DNA of 60,813 nt, from assembly GCA_030535455.1 (NCBI GenBank), contig JAUNJY010000025.1:1-60813 (forward strand), read 5' to 3'. A model generated the notes under the pieces. The model did not search any database. It was not told where the DNA came from and saw nothing but the letters and a program-made list of their open reading frames with translations. A program made the position numbers and the translations under genes. This DNA is from a bacterium. GTDB lineage: Bacteria > Bacillota > Clostridia > Lachnospirales > Lachnospiraceae. Below are positions 14,326 to 60,813 of this stretch, one piece after another. The first letter of the stretch is position 1; every line of letters begins with the position of its first letter.

Positions 14326-14446
14326 ATTTTCTTATCTCCCTTTAAATTTGTTTCCATTTTCCAATTATTCTAGTTATATCCTTATATTATGCTATTCTTT
14401 CATTATAAGTTTTTGCCGAAAGCTTGTCTACAGTAATATAGCATAA

Positions 14447-30890: not shown

Positions 30891-31607
30891 TTACTCTCCT
30901 CCTAATAACGCTTCTGCTACACGTAAGTCATATGGATAAGTGATCTTGATATTAAATACTTCGCCATCTACTAAATGTACATTCTGGCCTTTCATTGCAA
31001 AGATTTTACATGCATCTGTCAGAATATCCTTTTCTTCTTCAGAAAGAGAGTAGTATAACTCTTTTAATTTCTTAGCATTGAAGGACTGTGGAGTCTGTCC
31101 CTGATACATTTTAGAACGATCTGGAATATTAGTAATCAGCTGGTTGTCCATACTTTCCACAATTGTATCTGTTGCAGGGATTACTGTATCACAGGAACCA
31201 AATTGCTTTGCAAACTTGATGTTTTCTTCTAAGATTCTATGTGTTACAAATGGACGCACACTATCATGGGTTACAATGATTGTCTCCTCATTTAATTCAT
31301 GATTTTCTTCGATGTATTTGATGGAATTCATAATCGTTTCGTTACGAGTACTTCCACCTTCAATTACAACGATGCGGTCATTTTGTTTAATATATTTATG
31401 TATTAGGTCTTGCGTATGTTTTATCCATGCTTTAGGAGATAAAACAATGACCTTTGTGAAATGTGGATTTACCACAAATTTTTCAATCGTATGTATAATG
31501 ATAGGCTTTTCACCGACATTCATAAACTGCTTTGGCTTGTCTACATTGCCCATTCTGGTGCCTTTACCACCTGCTAAAACCACTCCAAAAATATTTGTTT
31601 CCTTCAT
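30891..31607 (-). CDS. tarI: Ribitol-5-phosphate cytidylyltransferase TarI
   Basis: Protein of 238 residues of the IspD/TarI nucleotidyltransferase family. The CTP-binding loop is VVLAGGKGTRMG, followed by KPKQF; THDSVRPFVT and YQGQTPQSFN are typical of TarI. It makes CDP-ribitol from CTP and ribitol 5-phosphate. IspD of the isoprenoid pathway has the same fold, but the neighbouring tarJ and TagF-like genes decide for TarI. GGAGG site; starts 3 nt after the upstream gene. Confidence 0.94.
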   Translation of the reverse strand: MKETNIFGVVLAGGKGTRMGNVDKPKQFMNVGEKPIIIHTIEKFVVNPHFTKVIVLSPKAWIKHTQDLIHKYIKQNDRIVVIEGGSTRNETIMNSIKYIEENHELNEETIIVTHDSVRPFVTHRILEENIKFAKQFGSCDTVIPATDTIVESMDNQLITNIPDRSKMYQGQTPQSFNAKKLKELYYSLSEEEKDILTDACKIFAMKGQNVHLVDGEVFNIKITYPYDLRVAEALLGGE

Positions 31608-34857: not shown

Positions 34858-34888
34858 AAAAGGGCTTCCTATTTTGGAAGCCCTTTTT
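34858..34888. terminator. Terminator shared by convergent genes
   Basis: AAGGGCTTCC and GGAAGCCCTT arms with TTTTT on the plus strand and TTTT on the minus strand. On the minus side it is directly preceded by the conserved 3'-UTR tag. Confidence 0.9.
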
Positions 34889-34907
34889 AGACTGTAGACA
34901 AATGAAA
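34889..34907 (-). repeat. Conserved 3'-UTR tag before a terminator, copy 1
   Basis: On the minus strand TTTCATTTGTCTACAGTCT, starting about 12 nt after the HAD gene stop and ending at the terminator hairpin. The same sequence is found at 39121, 48470, 48732 and 60762. Confidence 0.75.
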
Positions 34908-38942: not shown

Positions 38943-39086
38943 TGTTCATTTTCTCCGTAATATGTTTTCATTGCCTATTCTATCATTATTCACGCTATGT
39001 TTCTATTCTCCAACTTTATTTACCAATTCTTTTCAGCTAAGTGCATATCCTATGTCCTGCTTCTTTTATCACGCTGTTTCCCCATA

Positions 39087-39118
39087 ATAAAAAATACACT
39101 GCCGACTGACAGTGTATT
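39087..39118 (-). terminator. Distal terminator copy of the 39246 gene
   Basis: AATACACTG and CAGTGTATT arms followed by TTTTTT on the minus strand. A nearly identical hairpin lies at 39212-39237. Confidence 0.8.
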
Positions 39119-39241
39119 CCAGACTGTAGATAATTAGATGCTTTCATTTCCTTCAGCACTGGATGAAATCCTGATTTCATCCAAAGCTTGTCGACTTAGT
39201 CGACAAGCTAAAATACACTGCCAACTGACAGTGTATTTTTT
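39093..39241 (-). repeat. Hairpin-array 3'-UTR element flanked by duplicated terminator hairpins
   Basis: The two hairpins (39093-39118 and 39212-39237) differ by one base and flank a core of about 90 nt. The core contains a perfect AGCTTGTCGAC/GTCGACAAGCT stem, a GGATGAAAT/ATTTCATCC stem, a spacer CAGTGCTGAAGGAAATGAAA and the 3'-UTR tag (ending in TCTACAGTCT). The same modules in the same order recur at 48442-48780. Confidence 0.8.
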
Positions 39242-48327: not shown

Positions 48328-48356
48328 ATCATATCAATTAAAATCCTAGTTGACAA
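48328..48356 (-). promoter_or_regulatory. Promoter of the GTPase-NYN gene
   Basis: TTGTCA, 17-nt spacer, TATGAT on the minus strand, about 52 nt before the preferred ATG at 48276. Confidence 0.65.
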
Positions 48357-48402
48357 CTTCCTTTCTTCTAAGTATGTACCTTGCACCCGCTTTTCAGGGT
48401 AC

Positions 48403-48442
48403 TTTTTAATTGCTAGGAAAGTCCTTTCCTAGCAATTAAAAA
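48403..48442. repeat. Near-perfect 40-bp palindrome
   Basis: TTTTTAATTGCTAGGAAAG is followed after only 2 nt by its exact complement. The T-run lies before and the A-run after the stem on either strand, so it is not an ordinary terminator. Confidence 0.8.
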
Positions 48443-48780
48443 AGCTCCCTTCCAACCGGAAGAGAGCTCAGACTGTAGACAAATGAAATCTTACATTCAC
48501 TACAGCGCACTGCTTAGAGGAAAGTTTGAAAACCGTAGGTTTTCATTAAAATCAATATCCGGAAACCGCGCTTTTCGGATATTGGATTAGTGCGAATAGG
48601 TCCTGTTTCATAAGGACTTGCACGAGTGAGCACTAATCATTTCCTTCGGCACTGGATGAAAGCCTGATTTCATCCAAAGCTTGGCGACTTTGTCGACAAG
48701 CTGAAGCTCCCTTCCAATAGGAAGAGAGCTCAGACTTTAGACAAATGAAATCTTAATTTCATCCAAACCTTGTCGACAAT
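48442..48780 (-). repeat. Large hairpin-array 3'-UTR element with two terminator copies
   Basis: Read on the minus strand from the beta-helix stop codon: short core (TTGTCGACAA, GGATGAAAT/ATTTCAT, tag TTTCATTTGTCTAAAGTCT), terminator hairpin 2 (48705-48730), long core, tag TTTCATTTGTCTACAGTCT, then terminator hairpin 1 (48443-48469) with TTTTTT. The long core strings together stems AGCTTGTCGAC/GGCGACAAGCT-like, GGATGAAA/TTTCATCC, GATTAGTGC/GCACTAATC enclosing AGTCCT/AGGACC, AATATCCG/CGGATATT and GAAAACC/GGTTTTC. It is the expanded form of the element at 39093-39241. Confidence 0.8.
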
Positions 48781-51035
48781 TATGCAATTGCCTTTGCATT
48801 TTTTACAGAGGAATACTCTGAATATACTGTCACATTTCCAACTTTTTTAACACTTCTTACTTTATAGTAATAATTCTTACCTGCTGCAAGCTTTGTGTTT
48901 TTATAGGTAGTTGTTTTTACTGTTGCAATCTTTTTAAATCCCTTTGTCTTATTGGTGCTTCGATACACTTCGTAAGACGTAGCATCTGCTTGTTTTTTAA
49001 TGCTTACGTTAATAACTTTTCCTTTTGCTGCCTTTGTGCTGCCTAAGGAAGGAGCATTGTGGTTCAGCTTCTTCGTATCAATCTTGATTGTAGAATTACT
49101 ATTTTGTGAAAATACATTGGAAGTTAACGTTCCACTGACTTTCTTTGAAGAATCAAGGCAGATTGGGTACGTAGAGCGGCTAATCTTATTCCCGGAGATT
49201 GTAACCTTTCCGTTAAGAACACGGATTCCATAATTCTTCTTTGTTCCAGTAAGGGTATTATTCTTAATCGTTACCATATGGGAAGCAGAACCATTTAACT
49301 GAAGTGGCTGTCCAGTTCCCGTTATGGTTACGGTATTATTGGAAATTAATAAGTTCTTAGCTGTTGCCAGCACACGAATTCCGTATGTTCCACAACTGTT
49401 AAACTTATTCTGGCTGATTTCTTCTGTATAACAACCCGCAGAAATCTGCACACCTGCAAGTTTTGGACTTTTCACTGTATTCTTTGTGATTTTCTTGATC
49501 CATGACTTATTTCCTACATAAATGCCGCTTTCCTTTGTGTTTGTAATCACATTACCGGATACATTAGAAATCGAACTGTTATTTGCCACATAAATTCCAT
49601 GGATTCCTGAATTAGAAATCGTATTGTTATAGACATTTCCATGTACCTTAGATGAGTATTCTACTGCGATACCTTTTGTCTTTGCATTGGATACTTTATT
49701 GTTATAGATATGCTTCTTTACAATACCTTTGTAAAGCTCGATACCTACTTCATCTGTATTGGAAACCGTATTGTTATAGATGCTTCCATCTACTTGGCCC
49801 CATTCATGGATATAAATTCCGTGTTCGCTCATGTTATTAATTACATTGTTATTGATATTTCCTTTTACAATGCCATACTGATCCACATAGATCCCGGACT
49901 GACATCCCTTTTTTTCTTCGTCTTTCCAGTTGGTACTGTGTTTATAAGTTCCACATTGCTCAACCACGTTATTACTGATGTTGCCAGTTACATAACAAGT
50001 TCCAAAACTTTGCTTATTTCCTGCATATACGGCAATGCCAGCATAGGTTACCTTGCTGATCTTATTACCGATTACTTCAGATACATAGGTTGGTCCATAA
50101 CCGTTACGTACGCTGTCGATATTGATACCATAGTCACCATCTCCACCATTACGGTTTCCGCCAATTTCACGAATGGTATTGTAATTTAATGGTCCGCAGA
50201 TTGCTCCATTATAAATTCCAATTCCATCTCCGGTACATTTTTCCACCGTATTATATGTGATTTGGTTTACACTGGCATTGTACGTCAACATGATACCGGA
50301 TGACTTTCCATTTCTCACCTGGTTATAACACACATTATTTACTTTTGTATTCTTGCCTGAAATAAGTATTCCATAGGTAGTCATACTATTTCCAAAGGTA
50401 TCAATCTGGTTATAGGTTAAATCCGTTACCTTACTTGCTTCATTTAAGTAAATACCAAATGTCTTTACTTGTCTAATCTTGTTCTTTGAAAGCTTTTCGA
50501 TTGTAACCCCTTTGCCGTAAATACCCACATTGGAGTTGTTGACCACGCAGTTTTCAATTGCTGTAAAGCTGGCAGCATCTTTTGCATAAATTGCATTTTC
50601 AGGAGCCTTTGCTATCTCGATACTATCTAAAGTAACCGATTTTGCACCCTTTACATAGATCCCTCCGTTTACAAGCTTACCGCCTCGTACTGTAACATTT
50701 TCAGCTTCCGGTGCAATATAGATTGCATAACCGTCTGTTCCCTGATAAAGAATCGTGGCACCCTTTAATTCCACGATCGTGTTGCTTGGTATGGTCAGAT
50801 TATTGGTAATCTCATATGTAGCTGCACTTAAAACAACTTTATATGGTTTCGTCTGTGTTGCATATTTCTTTGCCTGAAGCAACGCTTCCTTTAATTCTTC
50901 TGTGTCTTCTGCTTCTACTTCACGGTAAATAACCGTTGTTGCCTTTGCCTGCGCTGCTTGGGCATGATCCCCTTGCAGCACAGGTGCAGCCATAAATAAA
51001 AATACAAGCATCAGACTATACAGTACCTTTTTCAT
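48780..51035 (-). CDS. Secreted right-handed beta-helix protein with C-terminal fibronectin-like domain
   Basis: Protein of 751 residues. A signal peptide is clear (MKKVLYSLMLVFLFMAAPVL, cleavage near AQA about residue 28). Residues about 100-650 hold some 20 PbH1-type coils rich in the pattern NxIxN..GIxV (for example GIYVKGAKSVTLDSIEIAKA), the solenoid of pectate-lyase-like proteins. Residues about 665-750 look like a fibronectin type III domain (SYEVYRSTNKTKGFKKIATV, then YYYKVRSV). It is probably attached to or released at the cell surface and may bind or modify polysaccharide. It is the last gene of wall-polymer locus 2, 30 nt after a TagF-like gene. Confidence 0.85.
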   Translation of the reverse strand: MKKVLYSLMLVFLFMAAPVLQGDHAQAAQAKATTVIYREVEAEDTEELKEALLQAKKYATQTKPYKVVLSAATYEITNNLTIPSNTIVELKGATILYQGTDGYAIYIAPEAENVTVRGGKLVNGGIYVKGAKSVTLDSIEIAKAPENAIYAKDAASFTAIENCVVNNSNVGIYGKGVTIEKLSKNKIRQVKTFGIYLNEASKVTDLTYNQIDTFGNSMTTYGILISGKNTKVNNVCYNQVRNGKSSGIMLTYNASVNQITYNTVEKCTGDGIGIYNGAICGPLNYNTIREIGGNRNGGDGDYGINIDSVRNGYGPTYVSEVIGNKISKVTYAGIAVYAGNKQSFGTCYVTGNISNNVVEQCGTYKHSTNWKDEEKKGCQSGIYVDQYGIVKGNINNNVINNMSEHGIYIHEWGQVDGSIYNNTVSNTDEVGIELYKGIVKKHIYNNKVSNAKTKGIAVEYSSKVHGNVYNNTISNSGIHGIYVANNSSISNVSGNVITNTKESGIYVGNKSWIKKITKNTVKSPKLAGVQISAGCYTEEISQNKFNSCGTYGIRVLATAKNLLISNNTVTITGTGQPLQLNGSASHMVTIKNNTLTGTKKNYGIRVLNGKVTISGNKISRSTYPICLDSSKKVSGTLTSNVFSQNSNSTIKIDTKKLNHNAPSLGSTKAAKGKVINVSIKKQADATSYEVYRSTNKTKGFKKIATVKTTTYKNTKLAAGKNYYYKVRSVKKVGNVTVYSEYSSVKNAKAIA

Positions 51036-54211: not shown

Positions 54212-56935
54212 TTATTTTTCCTCCTTACTACATTTACCCATATTACAAATCGCATCATAAATACGTTTTGAATTGTTTTGATCAAATGCCAGATAGAACT
54301 TTTCAAGTCGTTCTTCATAAGTACGCTGCATCTTACAATCACGCTCAATTGTTTCGATGATTGTTTCAACTGCTTTCTCGTACTCTTCACATACTGGACC
54401 AAATCCATCACGTTTATAATCCCAGTATCCTTTGTCATAAACTGCATGTTCAAAGAATTCTTCTCTGTCAAACTGAATATAGATTACCGGTTTCTTAAGG
54501 TATGCAAAATCATATGCAACACTGGAATAGTCTGTAATCAGTAAGGAATTATTTAAGAATTCATCGCGATACGTAATCCCCTCTTTCTGAATTCGGATCA
54601 CATCATTTCCATCAAAGTCTCCCACATTAGCAATATTATTTTGATGTAAACAGAATTTTCCGGTATACCCCTTCTTCTTCATTGCTGTAAGAATTCGTTC
54701 GTCATTGATTAAACGGTTATAGAAGTGATAGAATTCAGATTCTGCAAATGCAGGATTATAAGCACGATCACCTGTCTTTGGATCCATTTCACTTGCAAGG
54801 CTTGGTCTCCATGTTGGAAGGAAGATAATCTCTTTCTTAGCAGGATCTTTTTGTACAAGACGGTCATATCTTGCAAACCCGGTAAGAGCAACTTTTTCCT
54901 CTTCATAGTTATATTCATTTTGAACAATGGAGTCATATTCCGGTTTTGCTGCCGTAATAAATAATCCCAGGTTCTTATGAAACTTATTAAGCCAGGACGA
55001 TAAATCATCCTTAGTAATTCCATGTTGTAAGAATACCATGTCAAAATGACATAATGAGCGTACAAATGGTGCTGCCGCTTCAAATGGATTTCCGATATGG
55101 TCTTCCGCATGAGAAGAAATCACTTTATCTGCAAGCAATGTGTATAGTAGATGTTTCGTGGATTTATATTTGATAACATTCCCTAATTTTTTCATTCGTT
55201 TATAATCTTTAGAGGTAGCTGAAATTACATAATATGCTTCGATTGTCTTATCCGGATGATTTTTCATATATTCAAAAAATGCCTCGCCATTATCGCCTGC
55301 ATAATTAACACGGTCAGAAATCAGCCAGATTTTCTTCTTTTGACTCTTCTTTTTACGCCAGTAACGTTTTCTAAGCTTTAGCCCCTGTTTTGCAGCTGCA
55401 ATCTCTGTATCGGACCAATTTCCGCTCTTAATGCCCGCCTTAATATCTTCGGTAAGCAACGCTTCCCATTTCTTACGGTTTTCAATGGTGTTTGAACTTG
55501 CTCTTACTAGATTATTGTCTACTGTAATCAGAAAGTCATCGTTTTCATAATACGTATATTTGGATTTTCCATTTATTTTACCAAACTTTCCAAATGCTAC
55601 TTTTGAAGTAAATCGATGCTGATGAAAGCTACCACATAACTGATAGGTTCTTCCCTCTTTTAATGGCAGGCTGATTGCAAACTTCTGTGGATGTACTACT
55701 GTGATGCCAAGGAATTCTGCTTCACCGCAGAAGGTTGGCTCTTTTTCAATCGGATACTGTCTTCCCTCTTCATCTTCAAACCAGAATTTCATAAATGGTT
55801 CTAGCATTGTAAGCACACGACCTTCTATTATTAAGTCACTTGCCTTTACATCTACAATATCTGCACGAATGGTCATAATAGTATTCAAATTACAAATTGC
55901 AATGTTGTTAAAATACAGCTTGTCATTCATACAGATCAGTTCCTTACGAATATCCCTTCCATATTTCAATGACAGTAAGAAGATTTTTTCATTTGTATAC
56001 ACCCTTGCTTGCGTTGTGATGATATCATCTTCACATTCCTGTAACAGTGTTCGAATAATTCGATGATACTCTAGCTTCTGTTTTTCATCTAGCACATCAT
56101 TCACTGCTTCACGAAGTCTCCATTGTAATTCATATACGAATAAGTTTTGATAATAAGGAATTACTTCACCAAACTTCTGTCTTGAAAGCTCCATTAAAGC
56201 ACCATAGAAGGTAAGAGGAGTTTCTAAGAACCACTCAAATGACTTATGTTTATTCTGTACGGCAGAAGTTCCTGCAAAGCGTTTTCTGTAGTAGTATACT
56301 GGATCAGCAAGTACTCCATACTGTTCCTTTTCAAGAATGATTTTATTGATATATAAGGAATCTTCCCCATAACGCATCTCTTCTAAATACTTAAATTTTC
56401 TTGCAGCCTCTGTTTTAATCAAGCATGGTGCGGCATGGTTTTGTAACTCATCATAGTTATTATGAATGTTTACAATTCGATCCCTATGGTGCTTTGTTCT
56501 TGATAGTACGTGAACATGGCTTGCTGCCTCAAAATGAATGATTTTACAAGAAACCACGTCAATTTCATCGTAATGTGCTTCAAAGAAGTTATATGCCTTT
56601 GAATACGTATCTAAGCTCCAGATATCATCCGAGTCAAACACATTGATATACTTTCCTTCAGCATAGCTGATACCGTTATTTCTAGCACAGCTTACTCCTG
56701 AGTTTTCCTGATAAATATACGTAATGTTGTCTGGATATTTTTTTTGGTATGCACGACAGATTTTCTCACTATCATCCTTACTTCCATCATTCACTAAGAT
56801 AATCTGGATATTCTCTTTAAAGCCAATGTCCTGATTTATTACTGATTCTAGTGTCTCCTCCAGATAATCTTCTACATTATAAACAGGAATTACTGCCGTT
56901 ATCTTATACTTATACTCTTCACTACACGTGCTCAT
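54212..56935 (-). CDS. Bifunctional GT2 glycosyltransferase / TagF-like phosphotransferase
   Basis: Protein of 907 residues. N-terminal GT2 domain (about 8-240) with VIPVYNVEDYLEETLESVIN, LVNDGSKDDS and the DXD-like FDSDDIW; a middle region (about 290-500) of beta-rich sequence; and a C-terminal CDP-polyol phosphotransferase (about 540-900) with VFLQHGITKDD (His about 664), LTGFARYDRL, IFLPTWRPS, FCLHQNN (LHQ rather than LHP) and LITDYSSVAYDFAYLKKP. It probably adds a sugar and polyol phosphate to the same polymer. AAAGGAGAC precedes the ATG, which overlaps the upstream gene by 14 nt. Confidence 0.88.
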   Translation of the reverse strand: MSTCSEEYKYKITAVIPVYNVEDYLEETLESVINQDIGFKENIQIILVNDGSKDDSEKICRAYQKKYPDNITYIYQENSGVSCARNNGISYAEGKYINVFDSDDIWSLDTYSKAYNFFEAHYDEIDVVSCKIIHFEAASHVHVLSRTKHHRDRIVNIHNNYDELQNHAAPCLIKTEAARKFKYLEEMRYGEDSLYINKIILEKEQYGVLADPVYYYRKRFAGTSAVQNKHKSFEWFLETPLTFYGALMELSRQKFGEVIPYYQNLFVYELQWRLREAVNDVLDEKQKLEYHRIIRTLLQECEDDIITTQARVYTNEKIFLLSLKYGRDIRKELICMNDKLYFNNIAICNLNTIMTIRADIVDVKASDLIIEGRVLTMLEPFMKFWFEDEEGRQYPIEKEPTFCGEAEFLGITVVHPQKFAISLPLKEGRTYQLCGSFHQHRFTSKVAFGKFGKINGKSKYTYYENDDFLITVDNNLVRASSNTIENRKKWEALLTEDIKAGIKSGNWSDTEIAAAKQGLKLRKRYWRKKKSQKKKIWLISDRVNYAGDNGEAFFEYMKNHPDKTIEAYYVISATSKDYKRMKKLGNVIKYKSTKHLLYTLLADKVISSHAEDHIGNPFEAAAPFVRSLCHFDMVFLQHGITKDDLSSWLNKFHKNLGLFITAAKPEYDSIVQNEYNYEEEKVALTGFARYDRLVQKDPAKKEIIFLPTWRPSLASEMDPKTGDRAYNPAFAESEFYHFYNRLINDERILTAMKKKGYTGKFCLHQNNIANVGDFDGNDVIRIQKEGITYRDEFLNNSLLITDYSSVAYDFAYLKKPVIYIQFDREEFFEHAVYDKGYWDYKRDGFGPVCEEYEKAVETIIETIERDCKMQRTYEERLEKFYLAFDQNNSKRIYDAICNMGKCSKEEK

Positions 56936-59181: not shown

Positions 59182-59227
59182 TTAGTTAATTTAAACATCA
59201 TTATACATATTATACCATTTTAAATTC

Positions 59228-59480
59228 ATTGATGAGAAAAAGTAATATAAGATGTATTCCCACAGAGAGTCAGTGCTTGGTGGAAACTGACGAATATCCT
59301 TATATGAAAATCCTCTCTGAGAATTGCAGCTGAACCCATAAAGTAAGCGGCAACGGACGCTCCCCGTTATAGGAGAAACGTATTATTTGTACGTCAAAGA
59401 GTCATCTGAAACACAGATGGAACCAGGGTGGTAACGCGGAAATCAGACTTCGTCCCTTTTAACAGGGGCGGAGTTTTTTT
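59228..59480 (+). promoter_or_regulatory. T-box riboswitch leader, specifier probably AUC (Ile)
   Basis: The T-box sequence AACCAGGGTGGTAACGCGG is at 59421-59439. Stem I begins GATGAGAAAAAGTA, has the ATATAAG/CTTATAT helix above the specifier loop, the AGAGAG bulge and the GGTGG apical loop. By analogy with known leaders (GAA, one base, then the codon), the loop GAAAATCC presents AUC for isoleucine; AAU or AAA cannot be fully excluded. Stems II and III (ACGTA/TACGT) follow. Uncharged tRNA would stabilise the antiterminator and allow transcription of the BASS gene. Confidence 0.93.
59447..59480 (+). terminator. T-box leader terminator
   Basis: ACTTCGTCCC pairs with GGGGCGGAGT (10 bp with G-U pairs) and seven T follow. 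It is mutually exclusive with the antiterminator formed by the T-box sequence. Confidence 0.9.
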
Positions 59481-59555: not shown

Positions 59556-60533
59556 ATGAACACACTAAAAAAAATCAGTAAGTTTTTATCCAGCCACACA
59601 TCACTATTTATCATTGCAGTCGCCGTTGTAACCTTCTTCCTTCCCAACCTTTTCTCCTGGGTAAAAGGAACCAGTCAGACCATCATTATCGGCATCATTA
59701 TGTTTGGCATGGGCCTTACACTGACCACCGACGATTTTAAAATTCTTGCAAAACGTCCTTTCGATATTTTGATTGGCGCCGTTGCACAGTATACCGTTAT
59801 GCCTCTGCTTGCTTTTTCCATTACAAGGCTTCTTAACCTTCCGGATGACATTGCCATTGGACTAATCTTAGTGGGATGCTGTCCTGGCGGTGTTTCCTCC
59901 AACATTATGTCCTTCCTCTGCCATGGTGATGTTCCATTTTCTGTTGGTATGACTACCGTCTCCACAATCTTATCACCAATCCTTACTCCAATCCTTGTAC
60001 TTACCCTTGCCGGAAAATCCATCCAAGTAAATGCAGTGGGAATGTTCATTTCCATCTGTGAATCTGTTTTGCTTCCTATTGCCTTTGGTTTCTTGCTAAA
60101 TCATTTTCTTGGAGAAAAGAAAGGATTTCAGGATGCCCAGGCACTTATGCCTGGAGTATCTGTTACCGGGCTTGCCTTTGTTGTAGGTGGCGTCATCGCT
60201 TTACAAGGTGCTAACTTCTTTAAATCTGGAATTATGATTTTTGTCGCTGTCTTACTACATAACACAATTGGCTACTTACTTGGATATAGTGCTGGTAAGT
60301 TAACAGGAATGCCAGTTGCCAAAAAACGTACGATTTCCATCGAAGTCGGAATGCAAAATGCTGGCCTTGCCACCAATCTGGCAACTGTCCATTTTGCTGC
60401 ATTTCCACAGGCAGCCTTGATCAGCGCTGTTTCCTGTGTATGGCACTCTATCTCAGGAACCCTTTTAGCTGGCTTCTATGCTTATCTTGATACGAAAAAA
60501 GTAGAGGTTGTAAAGGAAGAACTTGTAGCTTAG
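59556..60533 (+). CDS. BASS/SBF-family sodium:organic acid symporter
   Basis: Membrane protein of 325 residues with about ten helices of the bile acid:sodium symporter fold. Family hallmarks are the substrate-site segment LVGCCPGGVSSNIMSFL (about 106-122) and EVGMQNAGLATNLATVHF (about 265-282). BASS members transport bile acids in animals, but in bacteria and plants they carry ketoacids, pantoate or similar organic anions. The T-box leader ties expression to amino-acid starvation, probably isoleucine, so a branched-chain ketoacid or amino-acid precursor is the likely substrate (inference). AAGGAGGG precedes the ATG. Confidence 0.92.
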   Translation: MNTLKKISKFLSSHTSLFIIAVAVVTFFLPNLFSWVKGTSQTIIIGIIMFGMGLTLTTDDFKILAKRPFDILIGAVAQYTVMPLLAFSITRLLNLPDDIAIGLILVGCCPGGVSSNIMSFLCHGDVPFSVGMTTVSTILSPILTPILVLTLAGKSIQVNAVGMFISICESVLLPIAFGFLLNHFLGEKKGFQDAQALMPGVSVTGLAFVVGGVIALQGANFFKSGIMIFVAVLLHNTIGYLLGYSAGKLTGMPVAKKRTISIEVGMQNAGLATNLATVHFAAFPQAALISAVSCVWHSISGTLLAGFYAYLDTKKVEVVKEELVA

Positions 60534-60732: not shown

Positions 60733-60761
60733 AAAAAAGAGACTGCTCTTGGAGCAGTCTC
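60733..60761 (-). terminator. Terminator of a minus-strand gene beyond the window
   Basis: GAGACTGCTC and GAGCAGTCTC arms with a 3-nt loop, followed by TTTTTT on the minus strand. Confidence 0.75.
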
Positions 60762-60813
60762 AGACTGTAGACAATTAAACTCTAGCAGTCACTTCAGCGC
60801 ACTGCTTATAGGA
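60762..60813 (-). repeat. 3'-UTR tag and start of another hairpin-array element, cut by window end
   Basis: On the minus strand AATTGTCTACAGTCT precedes the terminator, and further up GCAGTGCGCTG and TCCTATAAGC match the element at 48442-48780 (GCAGTGCGCTG, TCCTCTAAGC). The rest lies outside the window. Confidence 0.7.

Follow-up and report, generated by a model that had tools for sequence, protein, structure and literature searches.

The window, by which we mean the whole stretch of 60,813 nucleotides analyzed here, carries on its minus strand several copies of one family of short repeated elements of the MITE type, each adjoining a terminator hairpin. A full-length copy of 233 nt (48470–48702) has its left inverted repeat (AGCTTGTCGACAAAG..) at 48702 and its right one (..TTTGTCTACAGTCT) at 48470, and contains a structured, covarying core (48525–48677) scoring 162.4 bits with model R1, in whose building set this copy was included. 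It lies between two copies of the same terminator hairpin, the right one (48442–48469) with its T-tract and the left one (48704–48731) without it. Upstream of the left hairpin copy, what remains of a second, smaller member of the family (48732–48778) indicates nested insertions; similar nesting at three other loci of our collection (L035, L056 and L149), as at window positions 48442–48778, gives the impression that the same terminator has been hit more than once. A short derivative of 89 nt (39121–39209) keeps both inverted repeats, matches model R1 partially (39064–39184, 34.7 bits) and is likewise bordered by a left hairpin copy (AAATACACTGTCAGTTGGCAGTGTATTT, 39211–39238), which pairs with a right copy carrying the T-tract (39091–39120). 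A decayed element is represented by a solo right end (34889–34907) directly before a terminator hairpin (34858–34888), with no left end within 420 nt, and the right end of a further copy, cut by the contig end (60762–60813), adjoins the hairpin at 60739–60761. Not far from the latter, on the plus strand, a T-box leader (RF00230, 153.5 bits, 59220–59460) precedes the ORF at 59556–60533.

The right-end sequence had first been noticed in a sequence-only reading as a tag conserved in front of otherwise unrelated intrinsic terminators. All minus-strand copies that it named were present, at 34889–34907 and 48470–48488 (both exact), 48732–48750 (one mismatch), 60762–60780 (three mismatches) and 39121–39139, this last variant being found through a shorter core (39123–39133, one mismatch). 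Every one of them adjoins a hairpin, and the hairpins differ in sequence from site to site, so that the tag is indeed conserved separately from them. Within the window, the 19-mer had 5 matches with up to three mismatches against 0.06 expected, one of them on the plus strand at 55987, and the 11-mer core 8 matches with up to one mismatch against 1.07 expected. The plus-strand matches at 31537, 55515 and 55987 lie inside long minus-strand ORFs and are probably due to chance. A partial match that had been reported at 14424 does exist, but we saw no paired element end there, and it is probably a chance match or a remnant.

The same picture was found across the source assembly (4.35 Mb in 126 contigs, contamination estimate of 7.74%). 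Allowing one mismatch, TTTGTCTACAGTCT occurred at 72 places, compared with 5 for a reversed-pattern control. We examined hairpin adjacency at 72 sites, corresponding to 71 of these 72 places plus one site with two mismatches (L055), the window site at 60762 being left out. A hairpin started at most 2 nt after the tag in 61 of them, against 8.6% of 4000 random positions from the same loci, and a hairpin plus at least three T in the following 8 nt was found in 56 of the 72 sites, against 4.4% of the random positions. For exact tags, the proportion with a hairpin was 24/25, and several of the 11 sites without one appeared to lie in coding sequence. The genomic hits are thus not scattered at random with respect to terminators, nor is the tag confined to the window: besides its 72 places in the source genome, it was clearly enriched over the reversed control in two genomes of the same genus (22 vs 3 and 17 vs 5) and weakly so in a third, incomplete one (5 vs 2). 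Among 37 genomes of other genera, this search revealed no clear enrichment over the control. At the start of one contig (C43), a bidirectional terminator bears the tag on both sides, in inverted orientation.

When read from its flanks, the tag turned out to be the right end of a repeat of ~235 nt, the left end of which (AGCTTGTCGACAAA) agrees with the inverted tag in 11 of 14 bases. The consensus of the right inverted repeat is 5'-TTGTCTACAGTCTG-3' and that of the left end CAGnYTGTnGACAA. A DNA search, in which 40 of 124 candidates were scored, placed the repeat at 41 or more positions, including the window copy. In the source genome, the two flanks shared a hairpin above the 99.9% level of mismatched pairs (1122 pairs made from flanks of other copies) in 30 of 34 MITEs, namely the full-length copies with both flanks inside the fetched loci. 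Owing to similarity between some of the terminators, this null extends up to a value of 49, which 20 of the 34 MITEs still exceed. In the complete genome of a relative (G003), 14 of 16 copies, taken from 17 fetched tag sites of a genome that contains more, passed the same level with 240 mismatched pairs. The repeats are short, multi-copy, too short to encode a transposase, bounded by IS-like inverted repeats and flanked by a target duplication, that is, they have the properties of MITEs. Among the options left open by the sequence-only reading, the end of a mobile repeat is the right one, in agreement with the partner inverted repeat, the repeated body and the duplicated flanks; the duplication of the hairpins, visible at two sites of the window itself, and the fact that the tag is just one end of a longer element had been overlooked. 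The tag owes its fixed position to the insertion of the element at terminators.

The MITE interior is structured. In an alignment of 38 copies (23 from the source genome and 15 from G003, picked by eye from 50), the consensus has 54 base pairs, 19 of them with changes on both sides, and 98.8% of the cells pair, compared with 31–46% when the alignment is slid; the structure was derived from the alignment used in testing it, which favors it. The covariation score and the number of double-change pairs were above those of all 500 shuffles, whereas the number of further pair types was reached by 385 of the 500. Since much of the covariation separates the families of two species, the independent covariation events are few. 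Either RNA or single-stranded DNA could be the form in which the stems act. At gathering scores, Rfam contained no model matching the element in the window, the T-box leader being the sole hit, and at E ≤ 1 six sub-threshold matches appeared in 48350–48850. The best of these, a PyrR binding site (E 0.02, 31.1 bits for a gathering score of 54), extends on the minus strand over 48435–48556, covering the right-hand portion of the MITE together with its terminator. Among 299 genomes of the family, we detected the structured core only in the source genome and G003, although with 10 candidates scored per genome this is a weak test of absence.

Where a neighboring gene lay on one side only, the MITEs were in sense with it at 22 of 29 sites (p = 0.008), whereas IS copies divided 17 to 16, with no bias; in these counts the neighbor classes were sorted by hand from crude ORF calls, convergent and divergent cases were left out, and the loci from the transposase search in family members were not oriented by the transposase gene. 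Together with the fixed position of the tag before terminators and the structured interior, the sense orientation of the MITEs is what would be expected if the tag were a conserved RNA-level signal of 3' UTRs (a protein or sRNA binding site, or an RNase or termination signal), as the sequence-only reading had proposed. We consider this quite unlikely as the primary explanation, since a stand-alone signal would account neither for the partner inverted repeat, repeated body and duplicated flanks that accompany the tag nor for the fact that IS1182 elements of other genera and phyla end in it (see below), and nothing in our analysis showed a signal for processing, binding or termination. The tag is the right inverted repeat both of the MITEs and of insertion sequences of the IS1182 family having the same ends.

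These insertion sequences contain transposase genes that can end inside the tag. In a metagenome-assembled genome of the same genus (G002), an IS1182-family transposase fragment ends in ..LSTV-stop, encoded by TTGTCTACAGTCTGA within the tag. Two further tag classes of the source genome sit at contig ends, and one of them reads as a C terminus, KMVLGFFNPRTILSTV-stop, again with the stop codon within the tag. A full-length relative of the transposase (L165) scored 435 bits for an NCBIfam NF033551 cut-off of 270; a same-genus fragment (L155) reached 171.6 bits over positions 352–488 of 488, which is under the cut-off for the whole protein since the contig includes no more than its C-terminal part. 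No solved structure was related to the transposase by sequence at E ≤ 1. IS1182-family elements carry inverted repeats flanking a transposase gene and measure about 1.3–1.9 kb. The relatives that we delimited measure ~1.3–1.75 kb, with ends matching in 10–14 of 14 nt, and some of their transposase ORFs stop before the repeat and others run on past it. The source assembly had no PF13751 match and no complete IS, only IS ends at contig breaks. All seven IS right ends at contig ends matched one left end by their hairpin, with a shared run of 21–28 nt (next best, 6–8), and one of the eight left ends had no partner; such pairing would follow if each assembly gap contained an IS. In G003, which has MITEs, no relative of the transposase was detected at E 0.001. 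From the shared ends, we infer that the MITEs are moved in trans by an IS1182 transposase. In G003, a different IS1182-type element with a split reading frame (contig C1, ~452579–454700) occupies the place expected for a MITE's right terminator; it may have replaced the hairpin, as IS1272 does.

The hairpin duplication proved widespread among relatives of this transposase. We examined 120 loci: 80 from named genomes (the top-ranking ones among 555, with Anaerovorax sp. IOR16 contributing 42), 30 from family members and 10 from plasmids. A candidate duplication was called in 78, of which 71 passed the length and inverted-repeat cut-offs and 7 did not; the 42 loci without a call include some cut by contig ends and others simply without duplication. 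Leaving out L164 and L200 (not hairpins), L206 (same as L203) and L250, for which the script chose a 169-nt repeat and an earlier script had given a 27-nt hairpin duplication, there remained 67 distinct duplications, 36 from the single Anaerovorax genome, 17 from the remaining named genomes, and 7 each from family members and plasmids. Their hosts include Clostridium, Sporomusa, Desulfosporosinus, Bacillus, Lactococcus, Enterococcus casseliflavus, Staphylococcus arlettae, a Selenomonadales MAG and the fusobacterium Cetobacterium. The hairpin is also duplicated around a Brevibacillus copy with 41.9% identity to the query, whereas six copies from Proteobacteria and Bacteroidota (22–30% identity) had 6-bp candidates in two cases and nothing clear in four. 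No clear duplication was seen for Thermocaproicibacter (L312) and Geobacillus (L304), and a 15-nt candidate in Cytobacillus (L311) overlaps the element's own ends. The 17-nt duplication of a distant IS1182 relative (L184), which seems to span one palindrome arm and the loop, resembles neither whole-hairpin duplication nor hairpin deletion.

The 67 duplications measure 19–61 nt (median 25), the longest (L173) being a palindrome of ~28 pairs that by far exceeds the other targets. They are symmetric about the hairpin dyad, exactly so in 57 and within 1 nt in 62, with an asymmetry of 2 nt or more in the remaining 5. All six outer pairs were present in 54 of the 67, compared with 0.4% of random windows, and shifting the window by 1 nt left at most one duplication with all six. 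Because the cuts are symmetric about the dyad, the duplication length is variable, and this combination speaks for the dyad, rather than a constant spacing, as what positions both cuts. Base pairing runs past the duplication in 60 of the 67 sites, so that the cut usually falls short of the palindrome's end. At most sites the left cut separates two A and the right cut two T, and the flanking 8 nt contain on average 5.1 A on the left side and 5.2 T on the right.

An empty site could be identified in Lactococcus, where the IS of one plasmid is bordered on both sides by a copy of AAAGAACCTCTTGGTTCTTT. A query of 520 nt, joined so as to keep one copy, matched 36 Lactococcus plasmids, 34 of them over at least 80% of its length, and the 15 matches listed all ran end to end at 98.5–98.8% identity. 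The two plasmids that we inspected have one hairpin each, one of them with a single base change in the loop. Similar searches with the E. casseliflavus and S. arlettae copies returned 5 and 3 records, none covering more than 80% of the query and none containing the joined site. Comparison of occupied and empty sites shows that the target has one hairpin copy before insertion, the whole hairpin being present in duplicate afterwards, once on either side of the element. Three of the ten plasmid copies are without hairpin duplication (L275, ISEfa7 of E. faecium; L277, on Peribacillus plasmid pA; and L278). An origin of the two copies by recombination or slippage after insertion could be suspected from two of these, since that of Peribacillus has different hairpins on its two sides, suggestive of recombination between two copies, and in L278 the left side alone has a hairpin. 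Such an origin is nonetheless hardly credible as a general explanation, given that at dozens of separate sites the duplication ends exactly at the inverted repeats and that the empty site has exactly one hairpin copy.

The IS targets avoid genes and lie close to their ends. Only 6 of 65 fell inside an ORF of at least 90 codons, as against 77% of random positions, and 53 of the 65 targets with enough flank had a gene 3' end within 150 nt; in the 60 IS sites having a facing stop, the nearest one was at a median of 25.5 nt. Targets with A- and T-tracts just past genes, with 5.2 T on average among the 8 nt that follow the duplication on its right, might also be expected if the transposase read a paused transcription complex or the nascent RNA hairpin instead of a DNA cruciform. 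We regard this as improbable, because the cuts are symmetric on both strands, the richness in A on the left (mean 5.1 of 8) is as marked as that in T on the right, and IS orientation is unbiased (17 vs 16). The observations suggest an enzyme that would read DNA shape, not sequence.

We thus consider it very probable, from comparative sequence data, that these mobile elements insert at unrelated terminator hairpins and duplicate the whole hairpin, with an IS1182-type transposase acting on its own element and, in trans, on the MITEs. In the mechanism that we propose, a DDE transposase would recognize the cruciform, or hairpins on both strands, and join both 3' ends of the element to the cruciform, one at the 5' foot of each arm, after which gap repair would copy the hairpin. 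A four-way junction able to branch-migrate in the A/T tracts would give both the pairing past the cuts and the cut positions within A/T. After insertion, the right hairpin would keep the T-tract and lose the A-tract, and the left one would keep the A-tract and lose the T-tract; with the tracts split in this way between the copies, each neighboring gene would therefore end at a working terminator beyond the element. Transcripts from either side would run through the element and finish at the far hairpin copy, the element being transcribed within the 3' UTR of the host gene. A broader proposal is possible but in our opinion doubtful as a whole: an IS1182 clade would read shape and resolve a mobile cruciform junction at terminators, the hairpin of the target would fix the length of the duplication, and the elements could dispense with a terminator of their own, one being copied at each insertion; in this genus, a dependent MITE would carry a conserved multi-hairpin RNA, preferentially kept in sense in host 3' UTRs and having gained a function at the RNA level.

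If the main interpretation is true, it would define a class of transposases that recognize a cruciform structure and let the target dictate the length of the duplication, and insertions would become predictable in the neighborhood of terminators. It also points to a way in which a transposon can spread while leaving genes intact and transcription units separate. A practical caution is that what looks like a 3'-UTR motif next to a terminator can in fact be the end of a transposon.

For the IS1182 family, mention has been made of long duplications and of targets that are palindromic. Intrinsic terminators are also the insertion sites of group IIC introns, whose mobility is RNA-mediated and involves neither inverted repeats nor hairpin duplication. 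The short elements resemble prokaryotic MITEs in being short and multi-copy, with IS-matching inverted repeats and a target duplication, and differ from them in that the duplication is a whole terminator hairpin and the interior contains covarying stems. With the IS1182 family in general (ISEfa7, ISPse1, the T. kivui element), the common feature is the transposase family; ISPse1 is listed with a 4-bp duplication in the part of the source available to us (PMC3281130), as opposed to the whole hairpin here. The accessible text of a 2025 paper states that there is little information on IS1182-like elements and describes members with or without target duplication, with deletion, and with targets defined by sequence or structure (PMC12056078). 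In a large survey, again as far as its accessible text goes, IS1182 was among the families over-represented between convergent genes (PMC9208149); three other papers (PMC11702846, PMC3119063, PMC8868234) concern other systems in the parts available.

The closest parallel is IS1272/TnSha1 of staphylococci, for which the available portions of two papers describe a stem-loop target, in several cases a confirmed terminator (PMC5678879; PMC4923244). It shares with our elements the IS1182 family, the inverted repeats and the use of a stem-loop instead of a sequence as target. IS1272, compared here by its description, is reported in the text accessible to us to remove all or part of the stem-loop without target duplication (PMC5678879), whereas the present elements duplicate the stem-loop whole; replacement of the stem-loop in the manner of IS1272 is not what they show, the hairpin being duplicated. 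Both the family and its preference for stem-loops were thus already known. In the excerpts that we could consult, the main IS reviews and ISfinder lying outside this scope, we found no whole-hairpin duplication beyond a hypothetical pathway in PMC5678879, so that, within this literature, the duplication of the whole hairpin is the new part. As far as the accessible text of Wan et al. 2017 (PMC5678879) shows, pathway a, with loss of the stem-loop, was proposed for IS1272, and duplication was the hypothetical pathway b. Our mechanism, in which joining takes place at the 5' feet of the two arms and repair comes afterwards, corresponds to pathway b and, if true, the elements described here would provide natural, large-sample evidence for stem-loop-duplicating transposition, the alternative that the consulted part of that paper treats as hypothetical.
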